Positions 451 through 36,818 of a stretch of DNA of 64,000 nucleotides are shown here, piece by piece. The DNA is taken from the NCBI GenBank assembly GCA_015501585.1, contig JADNRY010000276.1:1-64000 (forward strand), given 5' to 3'. Origin of the DNA: Rhodocollybia butyracea. Lineage: Eukaryota; Basidiomycota; Agaricomycetes; Agaricales; Omphalotaceae. The position numbers and the translations under genes were made by a program. Positions within the stretch are counted from its first letter, which is position 1; each line of letters begins with the position of its first letter. The notes under the pieces were generated by a model, which did not search any database, was not told where the DNA came from, and saw only the letters and a list, made by a program, of their open reading frames with translations.

Positions 451-480
451 CTGGCGGCGCCTAAGTAATATATATAGTAA

Positions 481-540
481 CACAGGGGGCAAGGACCGTG
501 GCAGTTGATTTGCAACTGCGTTCAACGCAGTTGAAAGGTG
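481..540. repeat. Left terminus with alternating GCAGTTG motifs
   Basis: Within the terminal 60 bp, GCAGTTG occurs three times in alternating orientation, including the near-perfect palindrome CAACTGCGTT-C-AACGCAGTTG (512-532). The right terminus (36761-36818) keeps the same arrangement with a few substitutions. Alternating subterminal motifs are typical transposase-binding sites; that function is inferred. Confidence 0.55.
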
Positions 541-3267
541 ACACTGGATGCAGGTTCACGTGATTTGCCATGATATATGTTGAACAAATGTGAAAATCTC
601 ACCAAGTGGGATTCACATATTTTCTAATGCTTTCATTGAAAACATTGTAAAATCATGTTAAAGCTGAGACATATAGATTTACAATTAAATATGTATAAGG
701 GGCAAAAGTGATCCTGAACATATGGTGGAAACATAGTGCTTCCAGTCAATATATAATGCTTATATATCCCTCATTCCTGGTGCGACATACAAAAGACATA
801 CAGAAACATTATTCAAAACATCTGCTATAATTTTGCTGAACTTATGAGAAGCCGCTTTTTGGTTTCTTCTTTATAAGGAGCAAGAAGTATGAAATATGTA
901 TGCTGAGCAAACATATATAAATAATGCATATATGTTTTCTATTAATTGTAAGATGTATGGAAAAGTTATGCAAAATGTCTGCTATAAATTTTGCTGAACT
1001 TATGAGAAGTAGATTTTTGATTTTTTACATATAATGTGCCATAATTGTGAGATATATATGTTTAGCAAATGTAGATATCTAGCTCCTATATGTCATTCAT
1101 TGCTTGTAATATATATATAAGCAACATGCAAAAAAGTAATGGTATATATATGCTATAATTTTGCTCAAGTTATACTCCAGTTTTTTACCTATAATGAGCC
1201 ATAATCATGCAAACACATCTTCATTATTAATTGCAGAACATGGAGAATATATGCTGGAATTACACTAAAGATAAATAATGTTTAACATAATTTTATGAAT
1301 CTTCAGTAATGCAATGCTGATACTACGGAATGCTGGTTTATGTAAGTTATGCTATGAATAATAAAACTATAATGAGTATATGAAAAGTGAATGTCCCTGT
1401 TTATCCATTGTAGATGTTGCAGGTTTTAGTAAAGATATATAGAAAGTATGAGGTATGTCATTAGCATAATATGAATGTCATGATTACTGACATACAGTGA
1501 ATAAATGTATGAACTATTGTACCTATTTGGTGCCTCTAAGTTTCTTATCTGTTTGGAATGAAGATGCACCATTATTGAAAAAACATGCAGCTCAAACACT
1601 AGAAATAGTGAAAGAGTTATGTTAAGCTATGGTATAGGGCAGCACAAAGGCATCAAGATGATTTTGATGGATTATGACAACTGCACTTTCAGGTGTATTG
1701 ATCATTATCTCATGACATTTGAATGAACAGACAGAAAACATACAAAGAGCAAATGTGGATGTTATGAGAAGTTTGAATAGCTAATGATGTCAAGATTGTT
1801 CACCTGGGGTCTAATATTGGAGAAGTAAGACTTATGGAAACAAGAGGGATATATCATGGAGAATATTTAAAGGCATATCAAAATAATAAGAAAGAGCATG
1901 TATAGAAAATGGGAAATGAATGTGAAAAGTTTGAGAAGATAAATAGAAATAGGATGGTTATAAGATTGAAGTGAAACAAGAATATTATGTTGAAGTAAAA
2001 TATAGTCAAGACTACAAAGAGGGTACAGATAGTCTATGGATAGGCTACACAAAGGGCACAGATAGGCAATGCTGAGGCTACAAATAGGCTACAGCCTATA
2101 GTAAGGCTATGAGTAGGGTATGGATAGGCTACATGAAGGGTACAGATAGGCTACAAATAGAGTACAAGTAGGCAACATCAGGGGTACAGATCATAGGCCA
2201 TGGAAGGGATACAGATAGACTACTCTGAGGCTACAGATAGGTTACATCAAGGGCACAGGTAGGCTACAGATAGGCTACAGATAGATTACAAGTAGGCAAC
2301 ACCAGGGCTACACATAAGCTATGGATGAGTGACAGATAGGCTACTCAAAGGCAACAAATATGCAACAGATAGGTGACACCAAGGCTATAAATAGACTATA
2401 GATAGGCTACAGATAGGTTACAAGTAGGCATCACCAAGGCTACAAGTAGGCAAGACCAGGGGTACATTGAAGTGTGCCATGAAAGCTACTCCAAGGCCAC
2501 AAATAAGCAATAAATAGGTTACACCAAGGCTAGAAATAGACTATAGATAGGCTACAGATAGATTGCAAGGAGGCAACACCAAGGGTACAAATAGTCTATG
2601 GAAGGTCTACAGATAGGCTACTCTAAGGCTACAATAGGCTGCAGATAGACTACAGATAGATTACAAGAAGGCAACCCCAAAGCTACAAATAGGCAAGTAG
2701 GCAACACCAGGGCTACACATAATCTATGGATAGGTTTCAGATAGGCTACTCCAAGGCTTCAAATATGCAACAGACAGGTGACACCAAGGCTACAAATAGA
2801 CTATAGATAGGCAAGGCTATGAGTAGGGTATAAATAGGCTACATGAAGGGTACAGATAGGCTAAAAATATGATATGGATGGTCTACAGATAGGCTACTCT
2901 GAGGCTACAAATATGTTACAGATAGACTACAGATTGATTACCCCCAGGCAATACCAAGGCAACGACTAGACTATAGATAGGCTGCAGATAGATTACAAGT
3001 GGGCAACACCAGGGGTATAAATAGGCTATGGATGGTCTACAGATAGGCTACAACAAGGCTACAGATGGACTATAGATAGACCGCAGATAGATTACAAGTA
3101 GGCAGCACCAGGGGTGCAGATAGGGTATGGAGGGGCTACAGAGAGGCTACTGATAAAGGGTTCAAAGACTACAAATAGATTACATGCAGGAAACACAAGG
3201 AGGATGGTCTACAAATAGGCAACAGATAGGTTACACCAAGGCTACAGATAGACTACAGATAGGCTAC

Positions 3268-3604
3268 TAGGGATGGACACAAGTCCAGATCCCAGTAAAC
3301 CCGGACCCACTGCACAGGTGCCTGCACCCAAAAAAACACAACCTGTGACCTGACCCGGACCCGTGGGAAACGGGTATCTGGATCCGCCGGATCCGGGCCA
3401 TGCAGGTCAACCTGCAGGTATTTGTAGGTATTTGTACTTAAAATATACTTTATAGGTCTGAAAATCCCCAAGGGCTGACCTGTGACCTGACCTGCACCTG
3501 TGGGAACAGGTACCTGGATCAACTGGATCCAGGTCAGGCGGGTATTTTTCACAGGTTAAACCAAGTGGGTCACCTGTAAAGAGCTGGACTTGTGTCCATC
3601 TTTA
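3268..3604. mobile_element. hAT-like MITE in left arm (337 bp)
   Basis: Ends are TAGGGATGGACACAAGTCCA and the inverse of TAAAGATGGACACAAGTCCA. TAGGCTAC flanks both sides (3260-3267, 3605-3612), an 8-bp duplication as expected for hAT elements, although the surrounding minisatellite also contains this word. The interior is rich in ACCTGCAGG- and GGATCC-like palindromic words. The same insertion sits at the mirrored site of the right arm. Confidence 0.75.
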
Positions 3605-4180
3605 TAGGCTACAGATAGATTAAAAGTAGGCAACACCCGGGGCACAGATAGGCTATGGATGGGCTACAGATATGCTACTTGGAGGCTACAAATAGGCTAC
3701 AGATAGATTACGTCAAGGGTACAGCTAGGCTACAGATAGATTACAAGCTGCCGCAACAAGCAGGCAACACAAAGGCTACAGATAGGTTACAAGTAGGCAA
3801 CTCCAAGGCTACAAATAGATAGATTACAAGCAGGCAACACCAAGGCTCTAAATATGCTATAGATAGGCTACAGATGAATTACAAGTAGGCAACACCAAAG
3901 GTACATATAGGCTATGCATGGTCTACAGATATGCTACTCCAAAGTGACAAATAAGCAACAAATAGGTTGCACCAAGGCTGAAAATATACTACAGATAGGC
4001 TACAGCTAGATTACAAGTAGGCAACACCAGGGGCACAGATAGGCTATAGATGGGCTACAGATAGGCTACTCCAAGGCTACAAATAGGCTACAGATAGACT
4101 ACAGATAGATTACAAGCAGGCAACACAAAAGCTACAGATAGGTTACAAGTAGGCAACATCAGGGCTACAAATAGGCTAGG

Positions 4181-4647
4181 TGTCTGGGATGGTGGCGTCA
4201 ATGGTTAGGCTCGGGGCCCATAACCTATTAGAGGTTGATCGATAAGGCAGACAGTGTACTCTACACTGTTAGTAGGCTCTGGTCACACAGACACAGAGGA
4301 GACGAAGGTCCAGACACAGACACAAACAGAGAAAACACAACTTGATATTTCACAAGTACATACAGTCTTAAATACGAGTCCAGCGAGTTAATAATAAGTA
4401 CAACGCGTGAAGCGTTCACAGACGGAGTGAGAGTAATAAGACGAGAGTGGAATGGAGCACAAGGTAAGTAAGTAAGAATAGACAAGAGCACGATAATAAA
4501 GCAATGGCGAGTGGGCAGGATAAAGATAGTACAACTAGCTCACATACCAGTAGTTACAGCAAGAGAGAATGTTCCATAGATAGTAACGAAGTGAGAAGAC
4601 TGTTCCATAGTAAGTATAATGAAGTTGATAGATGACGAAGTCCAACA
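4181..4647 (-). repeat. Copia 3' LTR (467 bp)
   Basis: It starts TGTCTGGG and ends CCAACA. In transcriptional sense it is the downstream LTR. It differs from the other copy by one extra base near 4308, a G/C change near 4457 and a C/T change near 4538, which points to a fairly recent insertion. Confidence 0.9.
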
Positions 4648-7600
4648 CTCCTCCTCAAACCTTTGCAAGTCCCATAGACGATGCGAAGTGTTTGGCTTTT
4701 GCTGAAGTCAAAGCCTTGGTGAAAATGTCTGCTGTCCTCGGTTGGACAGTAAGTAAGTCGAATGTTACCTTCTTCAATAGCATACCGAATGAAATGATAC
4801 CGTATGTCGATGTGTTTGGTCCATGCATGAAACCTGTCATCTTTCGCTAAAGCAATGGCTGATTGGTTGTCCGAGTGAAGTGTGATAGGTCCGGCGATTG
4901 GAGTGAACCACTTGGAGATGAGGTTTCGAAGCCAAATTGCTTCCTTGGCTGCATGTGTGAGAGCGACGTACTCTGCTTCCTTGGCTGCATGTGTGAGAGC
5001 GACGTACTCTGCTTCTGTAGTGGATAGAGAGATGGTGTCCTGTCGCTTTGATGACCATGATACTGCTCCGCCATTAAGCATAAAAACGTATCCTGATATG
5101 GCATGTCTGTCCTCTTGGGACATTCCATTGGCGTCCGTAAATCCCTCGACAGGATGTTTCTGCACTCCTCCTGAAGTTAGCCAATAATCCCGGGTATATT
5201 TCAGATAAGCGTATACACGCCTAAGTCCGTTCCAATGAGCAATGCCTGGATTCTGCGTGAATCGGGCAAGAATGGCAACCGTATAGGTGATATCAGGTCG
5301 TGTGGCACTGGAAAGATATTGGAGAGCACCAAGTGCTTCTCGGTAAGGCTTATCCCGCATAGCGGCGATATCCTCCACAGTCTGTGGCATCTGGTCTTTG
5401 GTGAGATGAATATGGGGGTCGAAAGGAATGGAGAGTGGCTTTATGTCAGAGAATCCGTAGTGGCTAAGAATAGCATCAATGTATGATCGCTGTGATAAAC
5501 GGATAGATCTGCTGTGAAGTGATCTCTGAATCTCGATTCCAAGTAGCCAATGAATTTCGCCCTGATCTGTGACCTCGATAATCGCGCTGATAGATTTCTT
5601 CAGCTGTGCCATAATTTCCAGAGTTTTGGTAACCAATGTCATATCATCCACATGGATGAAAATGATTGTGAATGGGTCGGTGCGATAAAATACGGCATGA
5701 TCAAAATCTGACCGTTTGAAGCCTAGTTTTGTCATGATTTCCCTGAATCGCAAATACCATCTTCAACCTGCTTGTTTGAGTCCATACAATGCAAGTTTGA
5801 GTCGAAGTACTTGTCCGGGTTTTACACCTAGATTAATGCCGGTTGGTGCCTTCATGTAGATCTTTTTGCTGTCATCGAGTTTGCCATAGAGATATGCTGA
5901 TTTGACATCCATCTGATGAATGATCCAGCTGTGTTCAGCTGCGATGCTGAGAATAGTTCTGGCTGATGCAAGTTTGGCAACTGATGCGAAAGTTTCATCT
6001 GGAAAATAATCAATGTCTGGGATTTGATTAAATCCTCGCACCACAAGTCTGGCTCTGTGACTAGTAAGCCGTCCTTGTTCATCTTTCTTGGTCCGATAAA
6101 CCCATTTGGATGTGAGAATGTTTGCATCCGATGGTGCCGTGACTATATCGTAAGTTTCACGCTGGTTGAGTCTGGATATCTCCTCGTTCATGGCTTCTTG
6201 CCATTTCGGCCAATCAGGTCGGCGCATAGCTTCTGCAACTGATAAAGGATCTGATTCGATTTCAGATGTGACTTGTGCAAGCGATGCTGTAAGGTATCGG
6301 AGTTCCGTGTTACCCTCTGCTGATCCTTCAATGATATCCCTGATTTTCTGAGTGGGTCGCCTGACACGTTTTCCGGTAAGTTGTTCCGGCGGGATGGGCT
6401 CTGCAATTTCGTCAGGTACAGGAATAATAGGCTGTTCCAACTCAGTGACTGATGTTTCCAAATTTTCCAAATTTCCATCCTCCTCCTCAATGAGTTGGAT
6501 CTGCCTGTTGGAAATTGTTATGTTCTGTTCCGTGGTAACTGTTCGTCGCTGTGGCCAATAGATAAAATATCTGTTAGATTCCGTGTCTATACCTATCCAT
6601 CTTCCTTCTTGTGCCTGTGGTTCGAATTTTCCAGGCTCTTTCTCCTTCTTTACATACACTATGCTCCCGAATATTTGAAAGTTAGAAATGTCGGGTTTTT
6701 GATTGAACCGTTTTTCGTATGGTGTCGCCATATTTATTCCCTTCTTTGGTGTCCTGTTCCAAATATAAACCACGTACTTCATCATAAATCCCCATAGCCA
6801 TTTAGGGAGTCCTGATGAAATGATTAGACTTTGTATTGCATTCAGTAGAGTCCAATGAGTGCGTTCCGCTATGCCGTTATGTTCCGGAGTGTCATGCACC
6901 GTTAATCTCCGCTGGGTGCCAAGTCGTTCCAGGTACTGATTAAATTCTCGGCTAAGAAACTCTCCCCATCGATCAGAGTGAAGAATTTTAACAGTGATGC
7001 CATATTGAGTCTGGAGATTGGTTTGAATAATGACGTACTGGGTGAATGCTTCATCCTTGCTTTTCAGCAATGGTTCCTCTAGCCATAGAGTCGCCTCGTC
7101 GACTATGGTGAGGGCATAAGTGCAACGGTTGATAGTCTGCACTGATGCGGGTCCCCAGACGTCCATGTGAAAAACATCTCCGTAATTCTCCGCTCGTGGA
7201 GAAGACCGTAATTTGGCAATTGGAAATCTTGCTGCCTTAGCTAGCAAGCATGTACGGCATTCCGGCTCATCCATGTGAGATTTATCCAATCTCATCCCAT
7301 TGATCTGGTTGTGTGCGAATAAATGCTTAATATAAGCATAGTTCTGATGGCCTAAGATGCAGTGGGCGTCATAGAGTGATACCAGTCGATCTTTGGCAAC
7401 ATAAGCATATTCCTCCATGGGAATCTGGTAGAGTCCATGGATCTTCGGAATACATGCAATGATCCTGTTGTTGGGGTCAGTCATGGTGAGTAAACCATTC
7501 CCAATGTGGATATTGTATCCATCATCATCGAGTTTTCCCAAGGAAATAAGAGTGTTGGGAATGTTGAGACATAGGAGGGCGTTATGGAGCGGGACGTTTC

Positions 7601-7739
7601 GAGTATTGCCGTGGTTATCAATTGGAAAATCCAAATGAAGCGTACCTGCCATGCTAGAATTAAAAGTTCCGGCATTGGCTGCTTGAATGACTTTAGATCT
7701 TGGAGGCTGTCCTCCATAGGAGTCATGTGGCTCGAACAT
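4554..7739 (-). pseudogene. Copia Pol: integrase, reverse transcriptase, RNase H (one TGA, end frameshift)
   Basis: The reading runs leftward. It carries the integrase zinc-binding region (HCILGH ... CRTC), the D,D,E core (FHMDVWG; HSDRWGEF; PEHNGIAER), reverse transcriptase (KWVYRTK; HQMDVKSAYLYG; FIHVDDM, the active-site pair) and RNase H (GFTDANG; SLSTTEAEYVAL; IDIRYHF). The frame is continuous from 7739 to 4554 except for a TGA at 5763-5765, inside the conserved 'KQAG-R-RWY' stretch, where arginine is expected. The integrase second-Asp motif has W where a glycine is usual. Near 4738 the frame shifts, so the natural end (TADIFTKAL) lies in another frame that stops at 4655. It is inactive as it stands. 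Confidence 0.9.
4939..5010 (-). repeat. 36-bp tandem duplication in copia RNase H
   Basis: The 36 bp at 4939-4974 are repeated exactly at 4975-5010. This duplicates the residues EAEYVALTHAAK in frame, next to a conserved RNase H motif. It adds 12 residues without shifting the frame and probably damages the fold. Confidence 0.9.
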
Positions 7740-9232
7740 CCGGAATCAAATAGTATAGCCCCTCGGCTATGTGCTCCCATCATTGCTGTTTCGTGTTCAT
7801 CAGCAATATCATTGAAATCAAATGTGAGATATGTTTCTGCTGTATTTGGGGACATCTGGAAAGATGCCATCGAGTTTCCAAGCTCGGTGTAGGATTTGGC
7901 AGGAGGAAAGACGAAGCTGGTGTCCGATGACAACTCAATGGCTGCCCAAGATAATTCTGGGACTTCTTCAATCTGTGATGAAGATGCGGTTTCCTTCCCC
8001 TTTGGCCTAGATCTCCAATTTCCATCTGATTTCTTCCCCTCTTTCGGCTCGTGAGTTTCCCTACTCTCTTTGGCTTGATTAGCCTGTGGCCATTTAGGCG
8101 ATGGACATGTGCTCGCAAAATGTCCTTTCCCTCCACAATTAAAACATGCGGAAGTAGACCTGTTGAATCCGCTTGGTTTCGAGTTTCCTCAGCCCCTAGA
8201 AAATCCCCTCTGAGAAAATCCTCGACCTCGGGAATTTCCCGCATAGTTAGCCGATTCCTTCTTCCCCTTGTTGTGATGACTAGCACTACGTACGTGTCCC
8301 TGTGCTTCTGCACGAATGGTGGCAATCAATACCTGTGTTGCAGTTTCTTGTCGGTTCGAGATGTGACTACAACAAGTGCATTTATGGTGGGTCTGAATTG
8401 ATTGGGGATAGAGGATATGATGGTGTTGTTGAACATTTCATCGCTAAATTCGATGCCGCGGGTTTCAAGACTGTCTCGGATTTCCAACATAGTGTCTAGG
8501 TGTTTGTTAACCCTAGATGGTTCATAGCAACGCATGGTGTGAAGCTGTCTCTGCAGATGTGATTCCGTGAGCGCATTTTTGGAGTCAAAATCAGCGATTA
8601 AATTTGTCCACACATCACAAGTGTTGGTATAATTTCTATACCTTCGAAAAATGCCATCCGATAATCTGCCAATTAAAGCATTTAGCAAATCTGTATCAGA
8701 TGATTTATCTCCTGTATTTCCGGCTTCTCGTGTGTCTGTTGCTTCATGGGAGTTCCATGTGAGGTACTTGCCATAATTTATGGACTTTGCAGCTAATTCT
8801 ACTCGACTTTTCCATGTGTCCCAGTTCGATCCATCCGGTTTAAGGGTGGTGACCTTGTCAAATGCTTTCAGTGCTTTGGACATCTCGTCGTCAGATGAGT
8901 AGCTATCTGATTCTTCTTTGTCTGATGATCCTGGATCGCCTCCGTCAGATGGTGGTGAGCTGTGAGGTAAGTCTGATTTTGGGATCAAAGGAGTATCGTG
9001 ATCTGATGGTACAGGTGATGGAGCTGGTGGGGGCGGCGGTGGTGGCTGCGGCTTTGGCTGTGTTGGTTGTGATTGAGAGGCCTGTGATGCTGTTGTAACA
9101 ATCTTGGTATTTTGTTGGAATCCAAAGATGTGGTCTTAGGGCACAAGGAAGCTCTGGGTTGTTGGCGGCAACTGGCTTAGTTGTGGCTGAAGCTTGTGTG
9201 GATGGTTTCGATGAGCTGGGTTGTTGTGACAT
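7481..9232 (-). pseudogene. Copia Gag and protease, with frameshifts and one TGA
   Basis: The start ATG at 9232 (MSQQPSSSKPST) is only about 10 bp inside the LTR, leaving almost no room for a separate primer site. After a shift near 9100, the Gag body follows at 8326-8988 (SNWDTWKSRVELAAKS; DVWTNLIADF), the UBN2-like Gag of copia elements. Another shift near 8350 leads to the zinc knuckle CFNCGGKGHFASTC at about 8130. A TGA at 8189-8191 lies in a Gly/Arg-rich linker. The protease motif LFDSGCSSHMT reads at about 7765, followed by a one-base shift near 7677 into the Pol frame. Ancestrally this and Pol were probably one long frame. Confidence 0.85.
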
Positions 9233-9241
9233 CAACAATGG

Positions 9242-9707
9242 TGTCTGGGATGGTGGCGTCAATGGTTAGGCTCGGGGCCCATAACCTATTAGAGGTTGAT
9301 CGATAAGGCAGACAGTGTACTCTACACTGTTAGTAGGCTCTGGTCACCAGACACAGAGGAGACGAAGGTCCAGACACAGACACAAACAGAGAAAACACAA
9401 CTTGATATTTCACAAGTACATACAGTCTTAAATACGAGTCCAGCGAGTTAATAATAAGTACAACGCGTGAAGCGTTCACAGACGGAGTGAGAGTAATAAG
9501 ACGAGAGTGGAATGGACCACAAGGTAAGTAAGTAAGAATAGACAAGAGCACGATAATAAAGCAATGGCGAGTGGGCAGGATAAAGATAGTACAACTAGTT
9601 CACATACCAGTAGTTACAGCAAGAGAGAATGTTCCATAGATAGTAACGAAGTGAGAAGACTGTTCCATAGTAAGTATAATGAAGTTGATAGATGACGAAG
9701 TCCAACA
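9242..9707 (-). repeat. Copia 5' LTR (466 bp)
   Basis: Upstream LTR in transcriptional sense, TGTCTGGG...CCAACA on the plus strand. It is nearly identical to 4181-4647. Confidence 0.9.
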
Positions 9708-10478
9708 GAACCCATTGTTCCGACCTAGTGACAGACAACCCTTCACCTGCCACAACTGTGGCAAGCCAGGGGATATGGCAAGGAAGTGGCCAAGGGCAGT
9801 GGTATGGAAGGAAAAGGGCAAAAACAGGGCTAACAGAACCAGAACTTGCACAGCCTCCTTACATCAATGACTCAATATCAATCATTGCACAGCATTCTGC
9901 AGTCAGGCTGACTGATCCACAGCATTTCCGCAGTTATGACTCAAAACTATAGTACATATTAAACAGTATATAAGAAGGCTTGATTTACCAATGTAAGGTA
10001 GATGTATTATTTCTTTGAATCCAACCCCCGCTTGTTTGCTGTTATCACTTGTGTGAATCACCAGACCAACTCATTGTATCTTGTTGAGCTATCTCCAAGT
10101 TGTATCTACTAATATTTACCTGTTGAGCTATCTCCTAGTGAATACCTCTTTAATTGCCACTTCTTGAGCTATCTCCAAGCTGTGACTTCCTATTACTTGT
10201 TGAGCTATCTCTGAGTATTAGACACCACACTGTAACGCCTACGGCACGTTCATTGCCGTTATTTGTCAAGCTATCTCCAAATAATAACTTCTGTGATTAC
10301 AAACTAGTTACTGACTGTCCTTGAGCCTAGTTGTTTGAGTATATATTCTTTGCCTAGTGGTTTTAACAAACAGAAAGGCTTGCTCTATAGTCTCTATTAA
10401 TTTATCATTGTTACCACTGAGTTATGTACTGTGAGATACAGTCAGTGGTGATTATGGAGAGGCGGAGGTGTTACAAGA
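9708..10478 (+). mobile_element. Deleted retroelement: gag zinc knuckle joined to partial LTR
   Basis: Positions 9708-9857 encode TCHNCGKPGDMARKW, a CCHC Gag knuckle in which the last Cys has become Trp. From about 9858 the sequence switches abruptly to LTR sequence that aligns with 60180-61100 (TACATCAATGACTCAATATC; repeated TTGAGCTATCTCCAAGT). Everything between the gag knuckle and the middle of the LTR is missing, so this is an internally deleted element in plus orientation. Its 5' part ends exactly at the copia LTR. The junction with the minisatellite is near 10478 (TGTTACA/AGACTATAG). Confidence 0.7.
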
Positions 10479-10633
10479 CTATAGATATGGACAGGCTACA
10501 GATAGGCTACTCTATGATTATGACCATACACTTGCGGGGGTCAAGGTGTTATGCATTGTTTTTCTTGAGCATTATGCTCAGAGGCCGCCATTATGCATTA
10601 ACCATAGCGCTATATGTGTAAATGAATAAGCGG
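10479..10633. repeat. Foldback left arm, segment 2, with MITE-like piece
   Basis: About 25 bp of minisatellite lead into a small inverted-repeat insertion (ATGATTATGACC...) that continues at 12464-12600 after the 1.8 kb element. The mirrored copy is in the right arm at 16375-16532 plus 24118-24222, there split by the hAT element. Confidence 0.75.
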
Positions 10634-11290
10634 TATTAGGCCTAAAATTGGCCTAAGGCATGTAACCGTACATTTTGACACTTTGTACGTGTTATACAAT
10701 GCAATAAGAGAGTTATACGGAGCCCGAGCATGATAGCTGTTGCCGAGGCAAAGAACTTAACAATGATACTCAGCGAGCCGTGAAGGTACGCCCACAAGCG
10801 TAGCCTAGAGCCAAGTTAGCGAGGATACCTGGGCTGCCCGGAGATGTAACGCTACATCGTCAATCTAGTTATACCCAAGAGTGTAGACTCTCTAAACTAC
10901 AGGACATCTCGAAGCGGGATACGAGTTGTGCCGATGTCCGGAAGTGGTTGAAATACGGAGATCTTGCTATAACTCCGAAATTAGGTCACTATTTGTTTAA
11001 GCCGATATTAGGCCTAAAATCGGCCTAAGGCGTGTAACCGTACATTTTGACACTTTGTATGTGTGATACAATGCAATAAGAGAGTTATACGGAGCCCGAG
11101 CGTGATAGCTGTTGCCAAGGCAAAGAACTTAACAATAATACTCAGCTAGCCGTGAAGGTATGCCCACAAGCGTAGCCTAGAGCCAAGCTAGCGAGGATAC
11201 CTGGGCTGCCCGGAGATGTAACGCTAGATTGTCAATCTAGTTATAACCAAGAGTCCATACTCTCTAAACTACAGGACATCTCGAAGCAGG
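10634..11290 (+). repeat. Internal tandem duplication, about 371-bp period
   Basis: TATTAGGCCTAAAAT starts at 10634 and again at 11005. The following about 280 bp repeat with scattered substitutions (for example GAGTTATACGGAGCCCGAG in both). The 40 kb copy has only one unit, so the duplication arose in this copy. Confidence 0.85.
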
Positions 11291-14714: not shown

Positions 14715-14719
14715 AATTA

Positions 14720-24244: not shown

Positions 24245-24300
24245 ACATGGGAATGCCTGTCTGACCTGGATCCACAGGATCCAGGTACCCATTCCCATGT
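24245..24300. repeat. 56-bp near-perfect palindrome
   Basis: ACATGGGAATG opens and CATTCCCATGT closes, with ACCTGGATCC-ACA-GGATCCAGGT at the centre. The mirrored site of the left arm is where the copia/retro-fragment block now stands, so presence there cannot be checked. It may be a tiny MITE or the residue of one. Confidence 0.6.
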
Positions 24301-24873: not shown

Positions 24874-25210
24874 TAAAGATGGACACAAGTCCAGCTCTTT
24901 ACAGGTGACCCACTTGGTTTAACCTGTGAAAAATACCCGCCTGACCTGGATCCAGTTGATCCAGGTACCTGTTCCCACAGGTGCAGGTCAGGTCACAGGT
25001 CAGCCCTTGGGGATTTTCAGACCTATAAAGTATATTTTAAGTACAAATACCTACAAATACCTGCAGGTTGACCTGCATGGCCCGGATCCGGCGGATCCAG
25101 ATACCCGTTTCCCACGGGTCCGGGTCAGGTCACAGGTTGTGTTTTTTTGGGTGCAGGCACCTGTGCAGTGGGTCCGGGTTTACTGGGATCTGGACTTGTG
25201 TCCATCCCTA
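24874..25210. mobile_element. hAT-like MITE in right arm (337 bp)
   Basis: Inverted, apparently identical copy of 3268-3604 at the mirrored arm position, flanked by GTAGCCTA on both sides. Its identity with the left copy shows that the arms were duplicated or homogenised after this insertion. Confidence 0.75.
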
Positions 25211-26264: not shown

Positions 26265-26701
26265 TATCACAAATCTAAGCTCACCTGCTTAATGTGTTGA
26301 TAGGGGAAGTAAGAAGCTAAGTGTGAGAGAGAGATGCTTGTATGAAGACAATAAGATGTTCTTGAGTCTGGGGACTGTAGGAGCAGACCCCACTACTTAT
26401 ATACATGTGTAACTAAATAGGACCCAGAGTACTTTACTCTGGGTAGTTCCAGAAGGTTCTATCTACTCTGGGTAGTTCTAGAAGGTTCTACTGTCAAGGT
26501 GAAACTATCTGTCAAAAGATGTCACCATCTGTCAAAGGTGACACTGTCTGTCAAGGTTAGACAGTAATACATCTGGTATCTATCTACTTTAAGTAATAAA
26601 TAAGATATAGATCTAATGTAATGATAAGCCCATGGCACAGATAAGATATTGATAGATAAGATAAAATATAAGATAAAGCAAATGAATAGAAATCTGTGAC
26701 A
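26265..26701 (-). repeat. Chromovirus 3' LTR
   Basis: Downstream LTR in element sense, identical by eye to 32637-33073. The adjoining ATCACCCCCCCTTTAG (26701-26716) gives a G-rich polypurine tract on the minus strand, confirming orientation. Confidence 0.95.
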
Positions 26702-26716
26702 TCACCCCCCCTTTAG
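26702..26716 (-). promoter_or_regulatory. Polypurine tract
   Basis: On the minus strand it reads CTAAAGGGGGGGTGA directly before the 3' LTR, where plus-strand DNA synthesis is primed in LTR retroelements. Confidence 0.7.
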
Positions 26717-26743
26717 ATTTGAGCTCCGTTGAGAAATCAGAGT

Positions 26744-29068
26744 TTAATCTTCAAATTCCATCATCCTCACAGCTTTGAGGCCTTTTGCTTTGTACTTTCT
26801 TATCATCTCCTGAGCATTCCTTAAATTTCCTTCAGGTTCCCAGGTATCGTGATCACGAGTGAATCCTTTCCATCGTACAAGGTATTGGGTGGTTTTTCCA
26901 CGAACTCTGTGTTGGAGAATTTCTTCCACAACCCACTCCTCTTGTCCACCAATTGTAACTGGTTGAGGTGTGGGACTCTTTTGCCCAACAATAGTTGGTT
27001 CATTATAGGTGGCTAGTTTGCTGGCATGAAATACAGGGTGTATTGCACGGTACTTTTCTGGCAACTCCAGTTTGAATGTTACTTCAGACAACTTTTCAAT
27101 AATTTTGAATGGTCCTTCATATCTAGGCCGGAGTGCTCGTTCTGTAGTTTGGTAGTCCTTGAGATTTAGTAATACAAGGTCTCCAACTTTGAATGGAATG
27201 TTCTGTACACCCAGGTCATAGTACCATTTCATCCGCTCAGCTGCTAACTTTAGAGCTGCTTTTGCCTGCTCTTGGGCTTCAAATCTTCTTTGCATCATGT
27301 CATTTAGGTCAATTGGAAGACCCTCCTTTAATAATGTTGGACCTGCACGGAGATGACGTCCATATTCCAAGAAGAATGGACTCTCCTTTGTGCCCTCATG
27401 TGCTAAGTTGTTGTAGGCAAATTCTGCTGTACTTAACAGTTTTGCCCAATCACTGAGATTATAATCAACATAGCACCTAAGGTACTGTTCCAGAATCTGA
27501 TTAACACGTTCAGTTTGACCATCTGTCTGTGGGTGGTATGCAGTAGACATTGTGGATTGAATTCCAAGTAGTTTGCACCATTCTTGGAAAATCTCCCCTG
27601 CAAACTGTGGTCCTCGGTCAGAGATGATCTGTAATGGTAGTCCATGCAATGGATAGATCCTGTCATAGAGTAGTTGTGCCAGATCTTTGGCCGAAAATTT
27701 CACTGTAATGGGATAGAAGTGTGCTCTTTTTAATAGGCGGTCCACCACTACACATATTGCATTGTACCCATTAGATTCTGGTATCTGAGTGATCAGATCA
27801 ATGGTAATGATCTCCCATGGTCCATTAGGCACCATGTTTGGTTGTAAGGTCCCAAAAGGCTTTTGTGGGCGGTTTTTCATCCGCTGACATGTGTCACAAC
27901 CTGTGACATAATGTTTTACAAAGATTGACATCCCTGGCCACCAGTAATTTCTAGAGATGAGTTCATATGTTTTCCATCTGCCAGGATGTCCTGCAGAGGT
28001 TATGTCATGGTGGATTTCAACAATTCGTCGTCGCAAGTGATCATTTGTGCTCTTTGGTATGTAAACTTTTCCACGGTAAAGTAATAGACCATTTTCATAG
28101 TTCCATTCTTCTAGAGATTTCTTAAACTCTCGTGGTCCTGACTTGAGCAGTGACTTGTAATCCTTTGTCACTTCATCAGAAAGTAGTGCTTCCTTGACCT
28201 CTCTTAGGATTTGATCGTCATTGACAGGCGATGCATGAGATGCCTCGATAGCCTGAATGGCAAAAAATTCAGGTTTGAGCAAAATTTGGTCATTGTTATC
28301 AAGGTCTATCCCCTTCTCATGATCTGGCCTCCTGGACAGAGGGTCTTCGGCTTGCATTGATTTCCCTGGTTTGTGGTGTAGGGAGTAATTGAACCTTGTG
28401 AGGTACAGAGCCCATCGTGCTTGTCTCCGAGTTAACTTTTGAGCTGATTTAAAGTAAGTCAAATTCTGATGATCTGACCATATTTCAAATTTCTCTGGAT
28501 GCCCTTCCAAATAATGTCTATACTCTTCTAGTGCTCTAATAATTGCTAGGAGCTCCTTGTCATATATCTCATAGTTCCTTTCATGGACACTGAGTGACTT
28601 GGAATAGAAGGCTACTGGATGCCAGAGATTTTCATCTGGGTCCAGTTGAGACAAAACTGCTCCAACTGCGAAGTCACTTGCATCAGTTGATAGTCGGAAT
28701 GGGTTAGAGTCATCCGGGATCCTTAAGATTGGGGCAGAGGTAAAAGCTTGTTTCAGTGCTTCAAATGTCTGTTGCTGTTCCTCTTCCCAGATCCAAGGTT
28801 GATCCTTCTTGGTGAGATTGGTGAGTGGTTGAGCAAGTTTAGCAAAATCTTTGATAAATCTGCGATAAAAATTTGCAAAACCTAAGAAAGCTTGAACATG
28901 CTTGACCTTTTCAGGTACAGGCCACTCTAGAACTCCAGACAGCTTCTTTGAGTCCATTGCAACATAACCTTGAGAGATGATCATGCCAAGGTACTCTATA
29001 CTATCTTGTTCAAAGAAACATTTTTCAGCTTTTGCATACAAGTCATTGTCTTGAAGCCTTTTCAGCAC
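26744..29068 (-). pseudogene. Chromovirus Pol, second part: RNase H, integrase, chromodomain
   Basis: It continues reverse transcriptase just after the active site (NDLYAKAEKCFF), then RNase H (RLSTDASDFAVGAVL; YDKELLAIIRAL), the integrase HHCC finger (HHDITSAGHPG ... CDTCQRMK), and catalytic D-D-E (ITIDLITQIP; ISDRGPQF; HPQTDGQTERVNQ). A chromodomain closes the protein (VVEEILQHRVRG; YLVRWKGFTRDHDTWEP), which in this clade can direct integration to marked chromatin. The VDRLLKRAHF segment is usually VDRLTK.AHF. It is separated from the upstream part only by the 23-bp duplication at 29095-29140, so the pieces were one polyprotein. Confidence 0.93.
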
Positions 29069-29094
29069 TTCTTTGACAATTTCCCTGTGTTCCT

Positions 29095-29140
29095 TCTTGT
29101 CATTTCCAAAAATTAGGTCTTGTCATTTCCAAAAATTAGG
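29095..29140 (-). repeat. 23-bp tandem duplication breaking Pol
   Basis: Positions 29095-29117 and 29118-29140 are exact copies. 23 is not a multiple of three, so the frame is lost directly after YLDDILIFGND, the catalytic motif of reverse transcriptase. Removing one copy would rejoin the two frames. Confidence 0.95.
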
Positions 29141-30510
29141 ATATCATCCAAATACACCATAACTTGCCCTTTCCTGATGAGATCACCTAATAAGTCATTC
29201 ATCATAGACTGGAATGTGGCAGGTGCATTAGAGAACCCAAAATACATGACAGTTGCCTCAAAAAGACCCCTTTTAGTAATGAATGCTGTCTTCCATTCAT
29301 CCCCTTCATGAATGCGGACATTATTGTATCCCCATCTTAAATCAATTTTTGTGAAGATTGATGCCTGGCTTAGTGCATCAACCAGATCAGAGATCCGGGG
29401 AATTGGATAGCGATTTTTTACTGTTACATCATTCAGTGCACGGTAGTCCATACATGGGCGAAGTGATCCATCATGTTTTTTGACAAAGAAGAAAGGTGCT
29501 GCAACTGGGCTTTGAGAAGGTCTGATATAGCCCTTCCGGAGTTCTTCATCAATCCATTCATCCAATGAGTTCCTTTCTTTTGGAGATAGCGGGTAGACTT
29601 TTGCCGGTTTGGGAAGGGCAGAACCCTCCACAAAATCAATAGGATGATCATACGGTTTACGTTCTGGCATTCGCTCTGATTTTTGTTTAGAAAAGATGTT
29701 GCCATATTCATGTAACCATGGTGGCACAAGGGACTTCCACTTAGTGGTGTCCTCATCCTCCTCACTGAGTTCCTCATCCATGTCCTTTTCATCAAACATG
29801 GATGCAATCACAGCAGCTTGTGTGTGTTCAGTTGGACTGTTGAGGTCAATCCAATTTAAATAAGGATTATCTGGATCCTCCTCTCCTAATGTGTCCAGTG
29901 AAGATTCCCAGGGTAAATCCTGTTCATTGAGCTCATCAGCTTCAGCTTCAATGATTTGTGTTTTACGGGTTCTTGCCTCACATGTCTCTGGGCACCTGGT
30001 GAACACCCATTCCCCTGATTTCCAGTTAATTTCTGGATTATGTTTATACAGGTAGGAGTAACCAATCATCATATCCTTATCACCAAGTTGTGTGACAAAC
30101 AGGATTTGACGGGTTTTATGTGTGCCAATCTCAAGGTAGGCACTGACATATTCACTCACTTCTCCTGCTACATTAGGTGTTCCATCTGCATTCAATACTG
30201 GATACGGTTTTGCCAATTTATCAGTTACCAGGTGATTTCTTTCAACAAATGCTTTGTCAATGAAGTTTGTTGTGGCCCCAGAGTCAACAAGAGCCTCGGC
30301 CTGCGCTTTTGTACCATATACCCAAAGTGTTACTGGAAGTCTAAATGACATTTTCTTGTTACGAGCTATACTATTTACACAAGATTCCAGAACTACTTCA
30401 TTATTATTAAGGCTGATATTAGGTATATAATTTCCAGACTGTAGATCACAGACATTCTCCTCTACAGTCCTTGTGGAAAATCCACTTCGTATTGTCGACT
30501 TCTGACCCAC
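29113..30510 (-). pseudogene. Chromovirus Pol, first part: protease and reverse transcriptase
   Basis: The protease motif EALVDSGATTNFID is near residues 90-105, followed by an acidic linker. Reverse transcriptase follows, with the usual blocks (SPVAAPFFFVKKHDGSLRPC; DYRALNDVTVKNRYPIPRI; FTKIDLRWGYNNVRI; FGFSNAPATFQ) and the YLDD active site at the end. It overlaps Gag by about 49 bp in another frame, suggesting expression by programmed frameshift. It is truncated by the 23-bp duplication, so no full polymerase can be made. Confidence 0.93.
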
Positions 30511-31937
30511 TTGGGCTGATTTTTCAGTTTTGAAGTTCCCTCCTGCACATCATTGACTTGTGCAGTTGCCCTCTTTTCAGATGGCATGGGTTCGACAATT
30601 TCGGTGATGCTCGCATGATTGACATTGAGAGTTTCAGTTGGGGTTGCTGACTCATCATTGTCAAGTTCATCAAATAATTCCAACAGCCGTGCTTTGAATG
30701 ATTTTTTATCTCCATGCACAGGCTGCTTTCCTTTATGTCCCTGTCCACTGGTTGATGGAGTTGAATTAGAGGGTTTAGGAGCAGGGCGTTTATTCTCATT
30801 CCCAGGTTTGTCATAGCAGTCATTGGTATTATGACTTTTTGCTTTGAATTTCAAACCCTTTGCAGAGCATATTTGGCAAAGTTTGCCTTTTGTCTCCTGG
30901 GAATTTATTTGTTCTGGTGTTTTACCCTTCCCTCTTTTTGCCATATCAATCTCCATAGGTTGTGGATCATTGTTGCCATTGCCATTGCCTTTACTGTTTC
31001 CAGTGCCAAAAATAGAGCCTTTAGTTTTCTCAGGATGTAAGCTTTTGTAGGCCAACAGGAGAAGCTCTAAGTACTCCTCCCATTTGGTAGGTGATTTTCC
31101 TACAACTTCAAGTAGCACAAGTGCATTACGCAATTCTTGTGAGATGACATTCCGCAGCTTGTCAATATGGATATTGTCCTGGTATTCAACCAGGCGTGCC
31201 AAAGTGCGGTATTGTTCAGCATATTTAATGAAGTCCTTATTGGCCAAAGTTTTATTGGTCCAAAGCTGAGTGAGCTCATCCTTTGCTCCTTCTTTGTCAT
31301 CACGGCGGCCATAAATAGTGGTTAACTCCTCTACAAATTTATCCCAAAGTCCCAAGTCTTTTCCAAGACGGTTGTCATCAAAGTAGCGCTTCATGTATGT
31401 TGTGGCAGGTGAACGTAAGCGAGTCAGTGCAGTCACAATTTTTTGGTGATCTGTCACAATGCCAGATGATGAACAATACAGAGTGACTTGATTTAACCAA
31501 TCCTCCAGTGACATTTTGTTATCTGTCCCAGAGAATGTTGGTGGTTCAGGGACTTTAAGTCTAGTGATGGAGCCAGCACCAGTTCCAGCAGGGATTCTAT
31601 CCAACTGGGTTTTATAGGCCTGAAGAAGTTGGGCCTGTGTGTCAACTAGTTGCCTGAGGTTTTTAATTTCCTCCTTGAGAGCATCCTGGGTATGAGCAGC
31701 CATACTAAAAGCTTCATTCATCCAATCAGAAAGCTCATCAATATGTTGGTCAACATAATTTTTAACAGTGCTACTAGTTGTCAAGTGGGCATTTCGGAAT
31801 AACCGTCCAACCTCATTACGTTGGGCTTCAGAACCAAAGCCAATAGTAGTCATATCCACATTTTGAGCTACACTTTCAGCCCAGTTCTCTACATCAACCA
31901 TCGAGATGTTAGGTTGGTAAGGTGTGAAAGATGACAT
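30462..31937 (-). CDS. Chromovirus Gag, 491 residues
   Basis: Complete frame starting MSSFTPYQPNIS. A coiled-coil-like stretch (about residues 70-115) precedes the retroviral-type Gag core (LEDWLNQVTLYCSSSG ... WDKFVEELTTIYG ... LTQLWTNKTLANKDFIKYAEQYRTLARL). A zinc knuckle follows with unusual spacing, CQICSAKGLKFKAKSHNTNDC (C-x2-C-x11-H-x4-C), then a Lys-rich tail. Gag would package the RNA into virus-like particles inside the cell. Start chosen because it is the first ATG downstream of the 700-bp leader. Confidence 0.9.
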   Translation of the reverse strand: MSSFTPYQPNISMVDVENWAESVAQNVDMTTIGFGSEAQRNEVGRLFRNAHLTTSSTVKNYVDQHIDELSDWMNEAFSMAAHTQDALKEEIKNLRQLVDTQAQLLQAYKTQLDRIPAGTGAGSITRLKVPEPPTFSGTDNKMSLEDWLNQVTLYCSSSGIVTDHQKIVTALTRLRSPATTYMKRYFDDNRLGKDLGLWDKFVEELTTIYGRRDDKEGAKDELTQLWTNKTLANKDFIKYAEQYRTLARLVEYQDNIHIDKLRNVISQELRNALVLLEVVGKSPTKWEEYLELLLLAYKSLHPEKTKGSIFGTGNSKGNGNGNNDPQPMEIDMAKRGKGKTPEQINSQETKGKLCQICSAKGLKFKAKSHNTNDCYDKPGNENKRPAPKPSNSTPSTSGQGHKGKQPVHGDKKSFKARLLELFDELDNDESATPTETLNVNHASITEIVEPMPSEKRATAQVNDVQEGTSKLKNQPKWVRSRQYEVDFPQGL

Positions 31938-32636
31938 TTCTGCTTAATGGTAATTAGCCAATGTGTTTGTGATAAAAAACAAAGTTAGGATTGAGAAAAT
32001 AAAGTGCCAATTAATTTTATGCCAAGTACAATTTATAGTGGGAGTTGAATATCTAACAGTGCAATAGTACTTCTAGGCATAGTGGCATAGTGGCATTATG
32101 TGGCATAGGTACTACAATGTTGCTTTTCAGCAGACAGAGTACAAAGGAAAAAATGTGGTGTCCAGTGTTGTGGTTGTCCAGGTCTTGATGTCTTCTTCGT
32201 CAAAGTGGCAAGTCTCTATGTGTGCACTTTCACATAGCAAATGGGTTTTGGCCCTTGTATAACACAAGCGACTCAATCTGCCCAAACTGGTTTAGCCGTC
32301 GATACCCGAAGGCTCATGGCATGCTGAGTGACAAGAGCAGTGACCAGTCTGTTGCATCCTTCAACAATAAAGTTAAAATGCAGCAAATACCCCTTATGCC
32401 TAGGGCCCGGCAAATAGGTCAGCATGCAGCTCTCAGAGTTGAGCCACCCTTCAAGGAGAAGGTGCATCCCATAGAAGACACAGTCCTTTTCAGGAACAGC
32501 ATCAAAGATCCCCCAGAACTGACAGTAATCCCCCAGGACCCAAAGATGACAGAAGAAAGACTGGACAACCTGCAACAAAGGAACCTACCACCTGATGCAG
32601 TAGCAACAGGCAGCAAAGCAGCAAGACTCAAGAAAC
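31938..32636 (-). other. Chromovirus leader between 5' LTR and Gag
   Basis: About 700 bp with no sense-strand gene. On the opposite strand 32222-32650 is open for 142 residues (PPELTVIPQDPKMTEERLDN ...) and ends inside the LTR. Its composition looks protein-like, so it may be a captured host fragment or chance. No known family recognised. Confidence 0.5.
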
Positions 32637-33073
32637 TATCACAAATCTAAGCTCACCTGCTTAATGTGTTGATAGGGGAAGTAAGAAGCTAAGTGTGAGA
32701 GAGAGATGCTTGTATGAAGACAATAAGATGTTCTTGAGTCTGGGGACTGTAGGAGCAGACCCCACTACTTATATACATGTGTAACTAAATAGGACCCAGA
32801 GTACTTTACTCTGGGTAGTTCCAGAAGGTTCTATCTACTCTGGGTAGTTCTAGAAGGTTCTACTGTCAAGGTGAAACTATCTGTCAAAAGATGTCACCAT
32901 CTGTCAAAGGTGACACTGTCTGTCAAGGTTAGACAGTAATACATCTGGTATCTATCTACTTTAAGTAATAAATAAGATATAGATCTAATGTAATGATAAG
33001 CCCATGGCACAGATAAGATATTGATAGATAAGATAAAATATAAGATAAAGCAAATGAATAGAAATCTGTGACA
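32637..33073 (-). repeat. Chromovirus 5' LTR
   Basis: Upstream LTR in element sense, identical by eye to 26265-26701. It contains duplicated CTCTGGGTAGTTC(C/T)AGAAGGTTCTA blocks and repeated CTGTCAAGGT/ CTGTCAAAGGTGAC words that may be promoter elements. Confidence 0.95.
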
Positions 33074-34749
33074 CTATCTGTATCCCTTCCATGGCCTATG
33101 ATCTGTACCCCTGATGTTGCCTACTTGTACTCTATTTGTAGCCTATCTGTACCCTTCATGTAGCCTATCCATACCCTACTCATAGCCTTACTATAGGCTG
33201 TAGCCTATTTGTAGCCTCAGCATTGCCTATCTGTGCCCTTTGTGTAGCCTATCCATAGACTATCTGTACCCTCTTTGTAGTCTTGACTATATTTTACTTC
33301 AACATAATATTCTTGTTTCACTTCAATCTTATAACCATCCTATTTCTATTTATCTTCTCAAACTTTTCACATTCATTTCCCATTTTCTATACATGCTCTT
33401 TCTTATTATTTTGATATGCCTTTAAATATTCTCCATGATATATCCCTCTTGTTTCCATAAGTCTTACTTCTCCAATATTAGACCCCAGGTGAACAATCTT
33501 GACATCATTAGCTATTCAAACTTCTCATAACATCCACATTTGCTCTTTGTATGTTTTCTGTCTGTTCATTCAAATGTCATGAGATAATGATCAATACACC
33601 TGAAAGTGCAGTTGTCATAATCCATCAAAATCATCTTGATGCCTTTGTGCTGCCCTATACCATAGCTTAACATAACTCTTTCACTATTTCTAGTGTTTGA
33701 GCTGCATGTTTTTTCAATAATGGTGCATCTTCATTCCAAACAGATAAGAAACTTAGAGGCACCAAATAGGTACAATAGTTCATACATTTATTCACTGTAT
33801 GTCAGTAATCATGACATTCATATTATGCTAATGACATACCTCATACTTTCTATATATCTTTACTAAAACCTGCAACATCTACAATGGATAAACAGGGACA
33901 TTCACTTTTCATATACTCATTATAGTTTTATTATTCATAGCATAACTTACATAAACCAGCATTCCGTAGTATCAGCATTGCATTACTGAAGATTCATAAA
34001 ATTATGTTAAACATTATTTATCTTTAGTGTAATTCCAGCATATATTCTCCATGTTCTGCAATTAATAATGAAGATGTGTTTGCATGATTATGGCTCATTA
34101 TAGGTAAAAAACTGGAGTATAACTTGAGCAAAATTATAGCATATATATACCATTACTTTTTTGCATGTTGCTTATATATATATTACAAGCAATGAATGAC
34201 ATATAGGAGCTAGATATCTACATTTGCTAAACATATATATCTCACAATTATGGCACATTATATGTAAAAAATCAAAAATCTACTTCTCATAAGTTCAGCA
34301 AAATTTATAGCAGACATTTTGCATAACTTTTCCATACATCTTACAATTAATAGAAAACATATATGCATTATTTATATATGTTTGCTCAGCATACATATTT
34401 CATACTTCTTGCTCCTTATAAAGAAGAAACCAAAAAGCGGCTTCTCATAAGTTCAGCAAAATTATAGCAGATGTTTTGAATAATGTTTCTGTATGTCTTT
34501 TGTATGTCGCACCAGGAATGAGGGATATATAAGCATTATATATTGACTGGAAGCACTATGTTTCCACCATATGTTCAGGATCACTTTTGCCCCTTATACA
34601 TATTTAATTGTAAATCTATATGTCTCAGCTTTAACATGATTTTACAATGTTTTCAATGAAAGCATTAGAAAATATGTGAATCCCACTTGGTGAGATTTTC
34701 ACATTTGTTCAACATATATCATGGCAAATCACGTGAACCTGCATCCAGT
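33074..34749. repeat. Foldback right arm, segment 3
   Basis: Inverted copy of about 541-2220: a short minisatellite part, then the AT-rich unique part. In the stretches I compared directly, the match to the left arm was complete. Confidence 0.9.
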
Positions 34750-36760
34750 GTGTTGCCCCAGGCAGTTGCCGGCAAAGCAATAACCGTTGAATTCTTTTCA
34801 TGTCCCTTGTAATATAAATTAGGTTAGGCCCTTGCACATGCCCATCTTGGCATCATAGCCTGCGTCTGTAACGATGTCTCCCACTCATGCGCTTGCGCTT
34901 ATCCTGCTGCCGTCGTTCCTCGAGGACAGCCAGCTGGGGGTCATTTTATATATGCTTATGCGGTTGGATCTTGTCTGCTGCTCTCATTCTTCCTGCCTTG
35001 TAAATGAATCTAGTAATTAATTTATACTTCGTTGCTGAGCTTGCCCGAGAAATGTATATGTTCATTTCTTCTATGCTTAAAATCTTCACCTGTGATGTTG
35101 TTGCACTCATAATATGGCTCATACTACTGCTACTATAATCCTTTCACATCAATGGTGCCAAAATGGTGCCTTGAACATAGGATCTCTCACTCAAACCTGT
35201 CACTGGCCAGGACTAGCAAGAGAACTGGAAGGGGCTGGAAGGGAGTCCCACGCCAGGTCCCACACCATATTACTTACTATACTCCTGCCATACATAGGAC
35301 CATAACATGCATGTAATGAGTCTTCCCCTGATATGCTGACTCAGGGCTGCACATGAAAGTGGTGTAAGAACAAGTCCAAACACATACCAACACACACACT
35401 CAAAATCAAACACAAGTTCGGAGGGTGCACAAAAAGATATAAAATTCAAAGTACAAATGCTTTTTAGGGGTTTAGAATACAAGGGATAGGTCTTATCTGT
35501 TAAGTTCCACTGAACTTGGGTGCAATAACTTTACTTTCTGCAGAATAACTTTACTATGCTGAACTGAATAACTTTACTTGAGCTGCACAAATAACTTTAC
35601 TTTCTTTTGTTGTTACAAGTACAATCTTTCAAATGCTATTCTGTTTCTGCTCTGCTATTCTTGCAATATAAATACAAGTTCTCTGCTAGGTGCCGAAGCG
35701 AACCCTTCACACTACTCTGGCAATGAGTGGTATAACCTGGGGAGGTGGGTGCTTGCCTTCTTTGTAGACTTCTTATGTCTTTTATTATACCTGTGCAATG
35801 TAATTAAACACTTGTTCGGCATGTTTTTGTGCTTCATAATGCAATACATATGGATAAATCCAATGTTACAGTAGTTCCAGGTCTAGCTTAGACGTGGGTT
35901 TGAATTGTTTTTACTAGTGGCACTATATTGTGCCACACGGAACCACCACAACACTTCAACGGCGTCTATCATCATTGGTGGCACAATCCTCCATGGAGCC
36001 GAATATAGTATTCAATGCCGCCACATGGAGCGGAGTTATCTCTCATTGGTGGCATTGCGTATGTATGTCAAATTGTACTTCATTGAACCAAACTTGGACT
36101 GTATAATGCAACACGAAGCTTGGGTTTTAATATTCTGAGGTATGGAACATGTGCAACTGTGTTGTACTAACAAGAATCCATTAGGAATCATTGTCAGTTG
36201 GTGTCTGTGCTCAGTTCTCTATTGATAATATCAGAATACAACATACTGCACATAATCTGACTGTATCAGTGATACTGAAACATGGCCAATTAGGCATTTT
36301 GAGTCCAAATTATTATGGGGCGTATCACCCCATTCCCCAATATGAATGCCTTTTGGCAGAATTGTAGAGACCACACTTTCAAAGGTAGTAGTACTGTAGG
36401 CATCAAAAAACTCTTAGCTATAAATTCCTTTCAGACAATGTATCCTCAAGACCCTCAGTTGTTGTCAGCCTCTGATTGCTAGTATGATACTTGTTTGATA
36501 CTCGTGCTCCGAATCTTCCGATGCCTGACAGTGCAGCTTGAAAATGTTAATTGTTCATTCCTACAAATGACTCTCTGTCTCCTGAGACACACCAGCAGTC
36601 CACAAGGAGAAGTGAGCCTGAGCCTCGGAGAGATACCTCAGAAACGCTAAGATCATATTGAAGGAGCGCGTATGGGCGCTCCGTATCGGAGCTTACATTA
36701 CAACAACAACTCAATTCAAGAACCGGCTATATGCTTTGCCGGCAACTGCCTGGGGCAACA
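34750..36760. mobile_element. 2-kb terminal-inverted-repeat element, no transposase
   Basis: The termini GTGTTGCCCCAGGCAGTTGC... (34750-34779) and their exact inverse (ending about 36761) share about 30 bp, with a weaker match for 10 bp more. It splits a GTGTCAC word of the foldback terminus, as seen by comparison with 537-547, without a clear target duplication. No transposase frame is present; 35578-35874 is open but hydrophobic and unremarkable. GGCAGTTG is shared with the foldback terminus, hinting at related transposases. Confidence 0.75.
35320..35790 (+). repeat. Diverged LTR-like repeat, copy A
   Basis: Blocks such as CAAGTTCGGAGGGTGCACAA, CAAAAAGATATA, TTCAAAGTACAA and AATAACTTTACTTT recur in the same order at 37245-37690. 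This copy lies inside the 2-kb inverted-repeat element. The type of element is unknown. Confidence 0.6.
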
Positions 36761-36818
36761 CCTTTCAACTGCGTTAAATGCAGTTGCAATTCAACTGCCA
36801 CGGTCCCTGCCCGCTGTG
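36761..36818. repeat. Foldback right terminus
   Basis: Inverse of 481-537 with several substitutions (GCGTTAAATGCAGTTG against GCGTTGAACGCAGTTG). The target word TAA follows at 36819-36821. Confidence 0.75.

Follow-up and report, generated by a model that had tools for sequence, protein, structure and literature searches.

A repeat family in Rhodocollybia butyracea that is foldback in form, EnSpm/CACTA-like in its ends and unusual in size

We analysed a 64,000-nucleotide stretch of the basidiomycete Rhodocollybia butyracea (assembly GCA_015501585.1, contig JADNRY010000276.1, positions 1 to 64,000), called the window here, and the foldback element within it. This element occupies window positions 542-34750, has the termini CACTGGATGCAGG...CCTGCATCCAGTG (CACTGG...CCAGTG) and is one copy of a mobile family made up nearly entirely of two long, repeat-filled inverted arms. 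The family is foldback in form, EnSpm/CACTA-like in its ends and unusual in size. We think it probable that its members are non-autonomous elements of the EnSpm/CACTA type that move by cut-and-paste, and that their arms are homogenised by copying from one arm to the other. An earlier model reading made from the letters alone (the sequence-only reading) had described an unusual foldback object at 481-36818; its account of the shape was right, and its ends, target duplication and likely enzyme are replaced here.

Comparing the window with itself aligned three inverted blocks: 541-2218 with 33074-34751 (0 substitutions in 1678 positions), 2213-4178 with 24300-26265 (2 in 1966) and 12459-13302 with 15669-16512 (6 in 844). 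These blocks bear out the inverted arms that had been proposed at 481-13330 and 15660-36818, except that 481 and 36818 are not the ends of the element. As the sequence-only reading had noticed, the arms are made largely of short tandem repeats, a degenerate minisatellite whose period is 11 bp or a multiple of it, and later insertions break up both of them (Table 1). It had also seen no recognisable transposase in the loop; consistent with this, positions 13303-15668 hold no stop-to-stop frame of 150 residues.

A 22-base terminus occurs at 74 places in the genome at ≤3 mismatches (31 forward, 43 reverse), and a reversed-pattern control gave 0. Neighbouring termini within 40 kb formed 20 pairs, 15 of them convergent (chance 1/4, p = 4e-6). 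The 15 paired elements span 7.2-36.7 kb, all with CACTGG...CCAGTG ends, and are named here by their C numbers. The 3-bp target duplication is perfect in nine pairs (TAT, TGG, ACA, TAC, TAG, TGA, ATA, ATA and TTC); shuffles gave a mean of 0.99, and 0/20000 shuffles were as high. At other lengths the flanks agree in 4/15 pairs (1 bp), in 2/15 (2 bp) and in 0/15 at each length from 4 to 12 bp. Long inverted repeats form most of the element in the members compared, C1316 excepted, and short tandem repeats with the 11-bp period lie inside them in both the window arms and the divergent C992. This last element (C992:12446-19611) represents a subfamily with the same termini and different arm repeats (11, 22 and 33 bp), in which the 11-bp period is kept.

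Joined insertion sites were compared with the genome for the 11 elements that have a full or two-of-three-base duplication; the window copy and three elements with inverted or near-inverted flanks were omitted. Element-free genomic sequence spans seven of these junctions. Those of C14, C136, C677, C788, C1094 and C1067 are spanned over all 117 bases at 97-100% and that of C992 over 76, and no spanning match for C552, C910, C938 or C1127 was seen among the best 40 of 405 candidates. Some of the uninterrupted sites lie inside other repeats, so that they show the structure of the target and not allelic absence. Together, the 74 termini, the 15 inverted pairs, the 3-bp duplications and the empty sites support a mobile element of the foldback class, as had been suggested. 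Matches to Plavaka and KDZ transposases lie close outside C788 (right flank, 30068-30834) and C587 (15594-15908), and the family may insert into other transposons.

The CACAG...CTGTG ends at 481 and 36818, with TAA outside them, are present as described earlier and belong to a separate inverted-repeat element of ~1.1 kb that hosts the foldback. A genome search with window 481-780 as query gave 39 non-self matches (from the best 40 of 204 candidates); these start at query base 49-62 (window 529-542), and none reaches the CACAG end. At C721, C1267, C528, C853, C234 and C519, base 60 of the left-part query and base 1 of the right-part query fall on the same genomic base, and 6/6 of these uninterrupted host copies read AAAGGTGTTGCC over the junction. 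Because they lack the large insert, the six copies are natural empty sites for the window's own foldback insertion. The uninterrupted host sequence is GGTGTTGCC, and the foldback in the window is flanked by TGA and TGT, so the duplication was probably TGT on both sides, with a single-base change in one copy since. TAA is thus the duplication of the host element, not of the foldback. Searches with the window flanks gave no allelic empty site for the window copy; the left flank aligns with C676 in two separate stretches, and over its initial 414 bases the right flank finds nothing but the window. The flanks of the host element are TAA in the window, TCA at C721, TCC at C1267, TCA at C519, TGA at C853 and ACA at C234, and C528 carries the same flanks as C721. 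With such varied 3-bp duplications the host element, too, looks EnSpm-like and not like PIF/Harbinger.

PIF/Harbinger elements duplicate a TWA target (TAA/TTA). The nine perfect duplications of the foldback family are varied, as are the flanks of the host CACAG copies, and the PIF/Harbinger-like enzyme that had been proposed from the outer TAA is given up on these grounds. The ~8-10-bp duplication of Mutator or of the Drosophila FB foldbacks is likewise not seen in any pair, and the CACTGG ends are not those of Plavaka. Judged from sequence, the ends and the 3-bp duplication fit EnSpm/CACTA. As a comparison, excerpts of PMC12730594 describe EnSpm families of a rust fungus that have CAC..GTG ends and make 3-bp duplications. 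Since no transposase was recognised in the members read, the assignment is drawn from the ends and the duplication.

The family looks non-autonomous, in line with the sequence-only reading as far as members were read. Frames were listed in these members and part of them scanned against Pfam, with those of the window scanned in overlapping sets of 9 and 4 and the remaining member frames judged by eye; no transposase of the family's own was recognised. Ten frames of at least 110 residues from other members gave one copia-type gag fragment (C1127) and nine without a match. In the 2-kb centres of C14, C677, C1094 and C1227, where one open reading frame (C14) was scanned against Pfam, no transposase was recognised. 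An interrupted frame in the centre of C14 (C14:181501-182400) matches DUF6532 below the threshold and may be a fragment of a captured gene. Genome-wide Pfam profile matches numbered 22 for Transposase_21, 144 for KDZ and 138 for Plavaka (best 123 of 237 candidates). Three unpaired termini (C1216, C1338 and C1272) have KDZ fragments 8-17 kb away on their inner side, where by rough reckoning about one coincidence is expected. A CACTA-like element is present at C452 and C475; its ends were not found at either place. We rejected these as two independent CACTA insertions, as the two loci are collinear at ~99.9% over long stretches (C452:109001-124000 with C475:100701-115700) and appear to represent two haplotypes, both of which the assembly seems to include in part.

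The two arms of an element resemble each other far more than they resemble other copies. An element's own left and right 300-bp ends are ≥99% alike in 13/15 elements, the exceptions being C1316 (293/300) and C1127 (253/285, its left end broken by an insertion). Between elements the same ends have a mean likeness of 87.4% (range 75.4-100), and 27/30 ends match no other end better than their own partner. Whole arms, compared in seven elements, differ by 1 to 45 substitutions over 2526-12571 aligned columns. The near-identity of the arms in most copies suggests occasional copying of one arm onto the other.

C938 supplies a clock, as the same long terminal repeat (LTR) retrotransposon sits in both of its 12.6-kb arms. 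The two LTRs within one arm are alike at 375/386 positions on the left and 374/385 on the right (2.8% different), and corresponding LTRs across the arms are alike at 384/384 and 385/387. The arms themselves differ by 45 substitutions in 12572 (0.36%; LTR versus arm divergence, Fisher p = 6e-7). The LTRs differ more than the arms do, so an arm was copied after the retrotransposon had aged. At four loci with different flanks (C938, C335, C401 and C1266; C72 looks like an allele of C1266) the same LTR element is found at ~5.05-5.2 kb from the end. Because the passenger is shared by the four, with an unbroken alignment through the insertion checked for C335 only, the loaded element has probably moved.

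Inverted likeness continues beyond the ends of some copies. The flanks of C1227 are inverted copies of each other, still 99.8% alike ~1.6-2.1 kb from the element; at ~4.6-5.0 kb no copy was found in the mirrored position. At C587 the palindrome runs past the element to the contig start (1-5531 against 8693-14221, 99.95%), and C1316 has near-inverted flanks. In the reading that we prefer, an EnSpm/CACTA-like transposase supplied in trans would recognise the ends and, probably, also the repeats. Once the element is inserted, gene conversion from arm to arm would homogenise the two arms; breaks within the element or close to it would probably set this off, and copying past an end would leave inverted flanks as at C1227 and C587. 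The evidence for homogenisation of the arms is good, and that for its mechanism is weaker. A bolder form of this reading, which we offer tentatively and doubt more than we believe, has a self-maintaining transposable palindrome: transposase breaks at the ends would trigger the arm copying, passengers would be spread or erased, and overrun would write inverted duplications of the host sequence.

We regard as unlikely, though worth weighing, that the palindrome is built anew at each transposition, with one arm excised or copied and then duplicated in inverted form by hairpin or fold-back synthesis, so that the arms start identical and then age. This would account for the near-identical arms within elements and for the aged LTR passenger in both arms of C938. 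However, it predicts an even spread of substitutions, and the spread is uneven in the window element (2/3644 outer versus 6/844 inner, p = 0.0009) and in C910 (0/3169 outer versus 4/538 inner, p = 0.0004); fewer differences in outer than in inner arm are not predicted by a single duplication event. A weak further point is that the LTRs in the left arm of the window are more diverged (3/469) than the outer arms (2/3644; p = 0.012).

Several observations weigh against homogenised arms in an EnSpm/CACTA-type family. Six of the 15 pairs lack a perfect duplication: two of the three bases match in C579, C910, C938 and C1227, and none in C587 or C1316. C1227 does not count as duplication evidence because its flanks are inverted copies. 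An autonomous partner is lacking, in that no listed Transposase_21, KDZ or Plavaka match (for Plavaka, the best 123 of 237 candidates) falls between the 15 paired termini, and the one CACTA-like locus examined (C452/C475) has no sequence in common with the members read. The comparison of arms took in their whole length in 7/15 elements and the ends alone in seven others. In C1316 the ends are 97.7% alike and there is one inverted block of more than 100 bases (269 bases at 97.8%). Nor is the gradient from outer to inner arm seen throughout: the outer half holds 13/19 substitutions in C1067, 19/45 in C938 and 1/1 in C1127, and the seven elements pooled have 34 outer and 51 inner substitutions. 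With C245, an allelic copy of C938, the three sequences form a star (in ~5085 positions, 15 substitutions between left and right, 12 between left and allele and 10 between right and allele), which does not demonstrate conversion after the alleles split. Lastly, this is a draft assembly in which palindromes assemble poorly and polishing could falsely even out the arms, and the flanks of C587 and C1227 could come from misassembly.

That the structure as a whole is an assembly artefact, from a missed adapter or a collapsed palindrome, is in our view very improbable. Palindromes do seem to break contigs here: the contig that carries C587 begins 390 bases outside the element, and 22/28 unpaired reverse termini have a contig start <20 kb away on the inner side, compared with 3/16 unpaired forward termini, for which the outer side was measured (p = 0.0007). 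Because of these nearby contig starts, it is probable that many of the unpaired ends mark palindromes where the assembly was interrupted. But the window arms carry different nested insertions and are joined to different parts of the host element, which one folded read cannot yield. A plain chromosomal inverted duplication or palindromic segment that is not mobile would explain the inverted flanks at C1227 and C587 and the near-inverted ones at C1316, but it is refuted for the family as a whole, and hardly credible, given the 74 termini, defined ends, 3-bp duplications, uninterrupted sites and passenger common to four loci. The sequence-only reading had held that termini with no other genomic copy would favour such a duplication; other copies were found both for the CACAG ends and for the corrected CACTGG ends. 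Equally hard to credit is a foldback at 481-36818 with a TAA duplication and a PIF/Harbinger-like enzyme, for although TAA lies on both outer sides and the CACAG ends match, these ends occur as a ~1.1-kb element without the foldback at other 3-bp targets, so that the uninterrupted host copies refute it, and there is a large family with CACTGG ends and varied 3-bp targets.

Table 1. Parts of the foldback element in the window, its host element and the insertions nested in its arms
Feature	Position	Strand	Remarks
Left TAA target duplication of host CACAG element	478..480		Right copy 36819-36821
Left piece of host inverted-repeat element (CACAG...)	481..540	+	
Left 3-bp target duplication of foldback element, TGA	539..541		Right copy TGT
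Outer left arm: terminus CACTGGATGCAGG, then 11-bp-period repeats	542..4178	+	
Copia-type LTR retrotransposon, left arm only	4179..9707	-	Terminal repeats 4179-4647/9240-9707, 99.36%; approximate edges
Left arm, next stretch	9708..10633	+	Matches to other family members
Further repeat inserted in left arm	10634..12455		Boundaries inferred from the C938 member
Inner left arm	12456..13302	+	
Centre (loop), in part the same repeats as the arms	13303..15668		No frame of 150 residues
Inner right arm	15669..16532	-	
Presumed hAT-like insertion, right arm	16533..24109		Ends TAGAGATGTCC...GGACATCTCTA; 8-bp duplication CATATAGC on both sides
Right arm, middle	24110..26264	-	~0.7 kb of left arm missing here
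Gypsy-type LTR retrotransposon with chromodomain, right arm only	26265..33073	-	CTATC on both sides
Outer right arm, ends in CCTGCATCCAGTG	33074..34750	-	
Right 3-bp target duplication of foldback element, TGT	34751..34753		
Right piece of host CACAG element	34752..36818	+	Insertion inside at ~35328-36328

Among the insertions in the window arms, the Gypsy-type element has terminal repeats identical over 438 bp. The large insertion next to the inner right arm, which we take to be hAT-like from its ends, the length of its duplication and its motifs, gave no Pfam match among the frames scanned. Other features were seen in the right part of the window. A 44-bp tandem repeat at 60504-60902 has a consensus unit like one in the arm of C910 (L010, bases 5205-5324). 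A second, diverged inverted pair lies at 50198-50755 and 57755-58333 (74.6%), and a 415-residue open frame on the minus strand (52034-53281) has a leucine-rich-repeat match below the curated cut-off.

Copies of this family number in the dozens in one genome, some of them on allelic contigs and some with aged passengers that serve as clocks, and they offer a direct test of arm-to-arm gene conversion. The family may also account for the places at which some contigs of the assembly stop. No fungal foldback of the CACTA type appeared in searches of open-licence papers. The foldbacks in the papers compared are animal elements, and a fungal family with CACTA-type ends and arms several kilobases long takes the foldback form into a further superfamily and a larger size range.

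The nearest known systems each share a part of this anatomy. EnSpm/CACTA elements (CMC/CMCT clade, fungal families included) have the same CAC..GTG termini and 3-bp target duplications in the excerpts of PMC12730594, and subterminal repeats belong to CACTA anatomy according to those of PMC8978399. The family described here differs in that no transposase or partner element was found for it, its repeats extend over kilobases and not several hundred bases, and its arms are fully inverted. Plavaka elements, fungal relatives of EnSpm transposases that are common in this genome, have ends TGT..ACA (2-bp duplication) or CATCA..TGATG (2-3-bp) in the excerpted part of PMC12730594, unlike the CACTGG found here. 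Among foldbacks, Galileo of Drosophila (P superfamily, foldback-like) likewise has non-autonomous copies that are almost only long inverted repeats, some with internal tandem repeats; the excerpts of PMC3573991 give a mean length of 668 bp for its terminal inverted repeats, with a maximum of ~1.26 kb, and 7-bp duplications, whereas the arms here measure 2.5-12.6 kb (seven elements) with 3-bp duplications. Tetris of Drosophila virilis, a foldback that is probably a Mutator element, is also non-autonomous with tandem repeats in its arms, and in the excerpts of PMC4079207 it shares its ends with a smaller element and homogenisation is suggested. It differs in its 220-bp units, 8-10-bp duplications and superfamily. 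In the same excerpts the authors of the Tetris work note that most foldbacks seem to be Mutator elements; the ends and 3-bp duplications of the family in R. butyracea point to EnSpm/CACTA.

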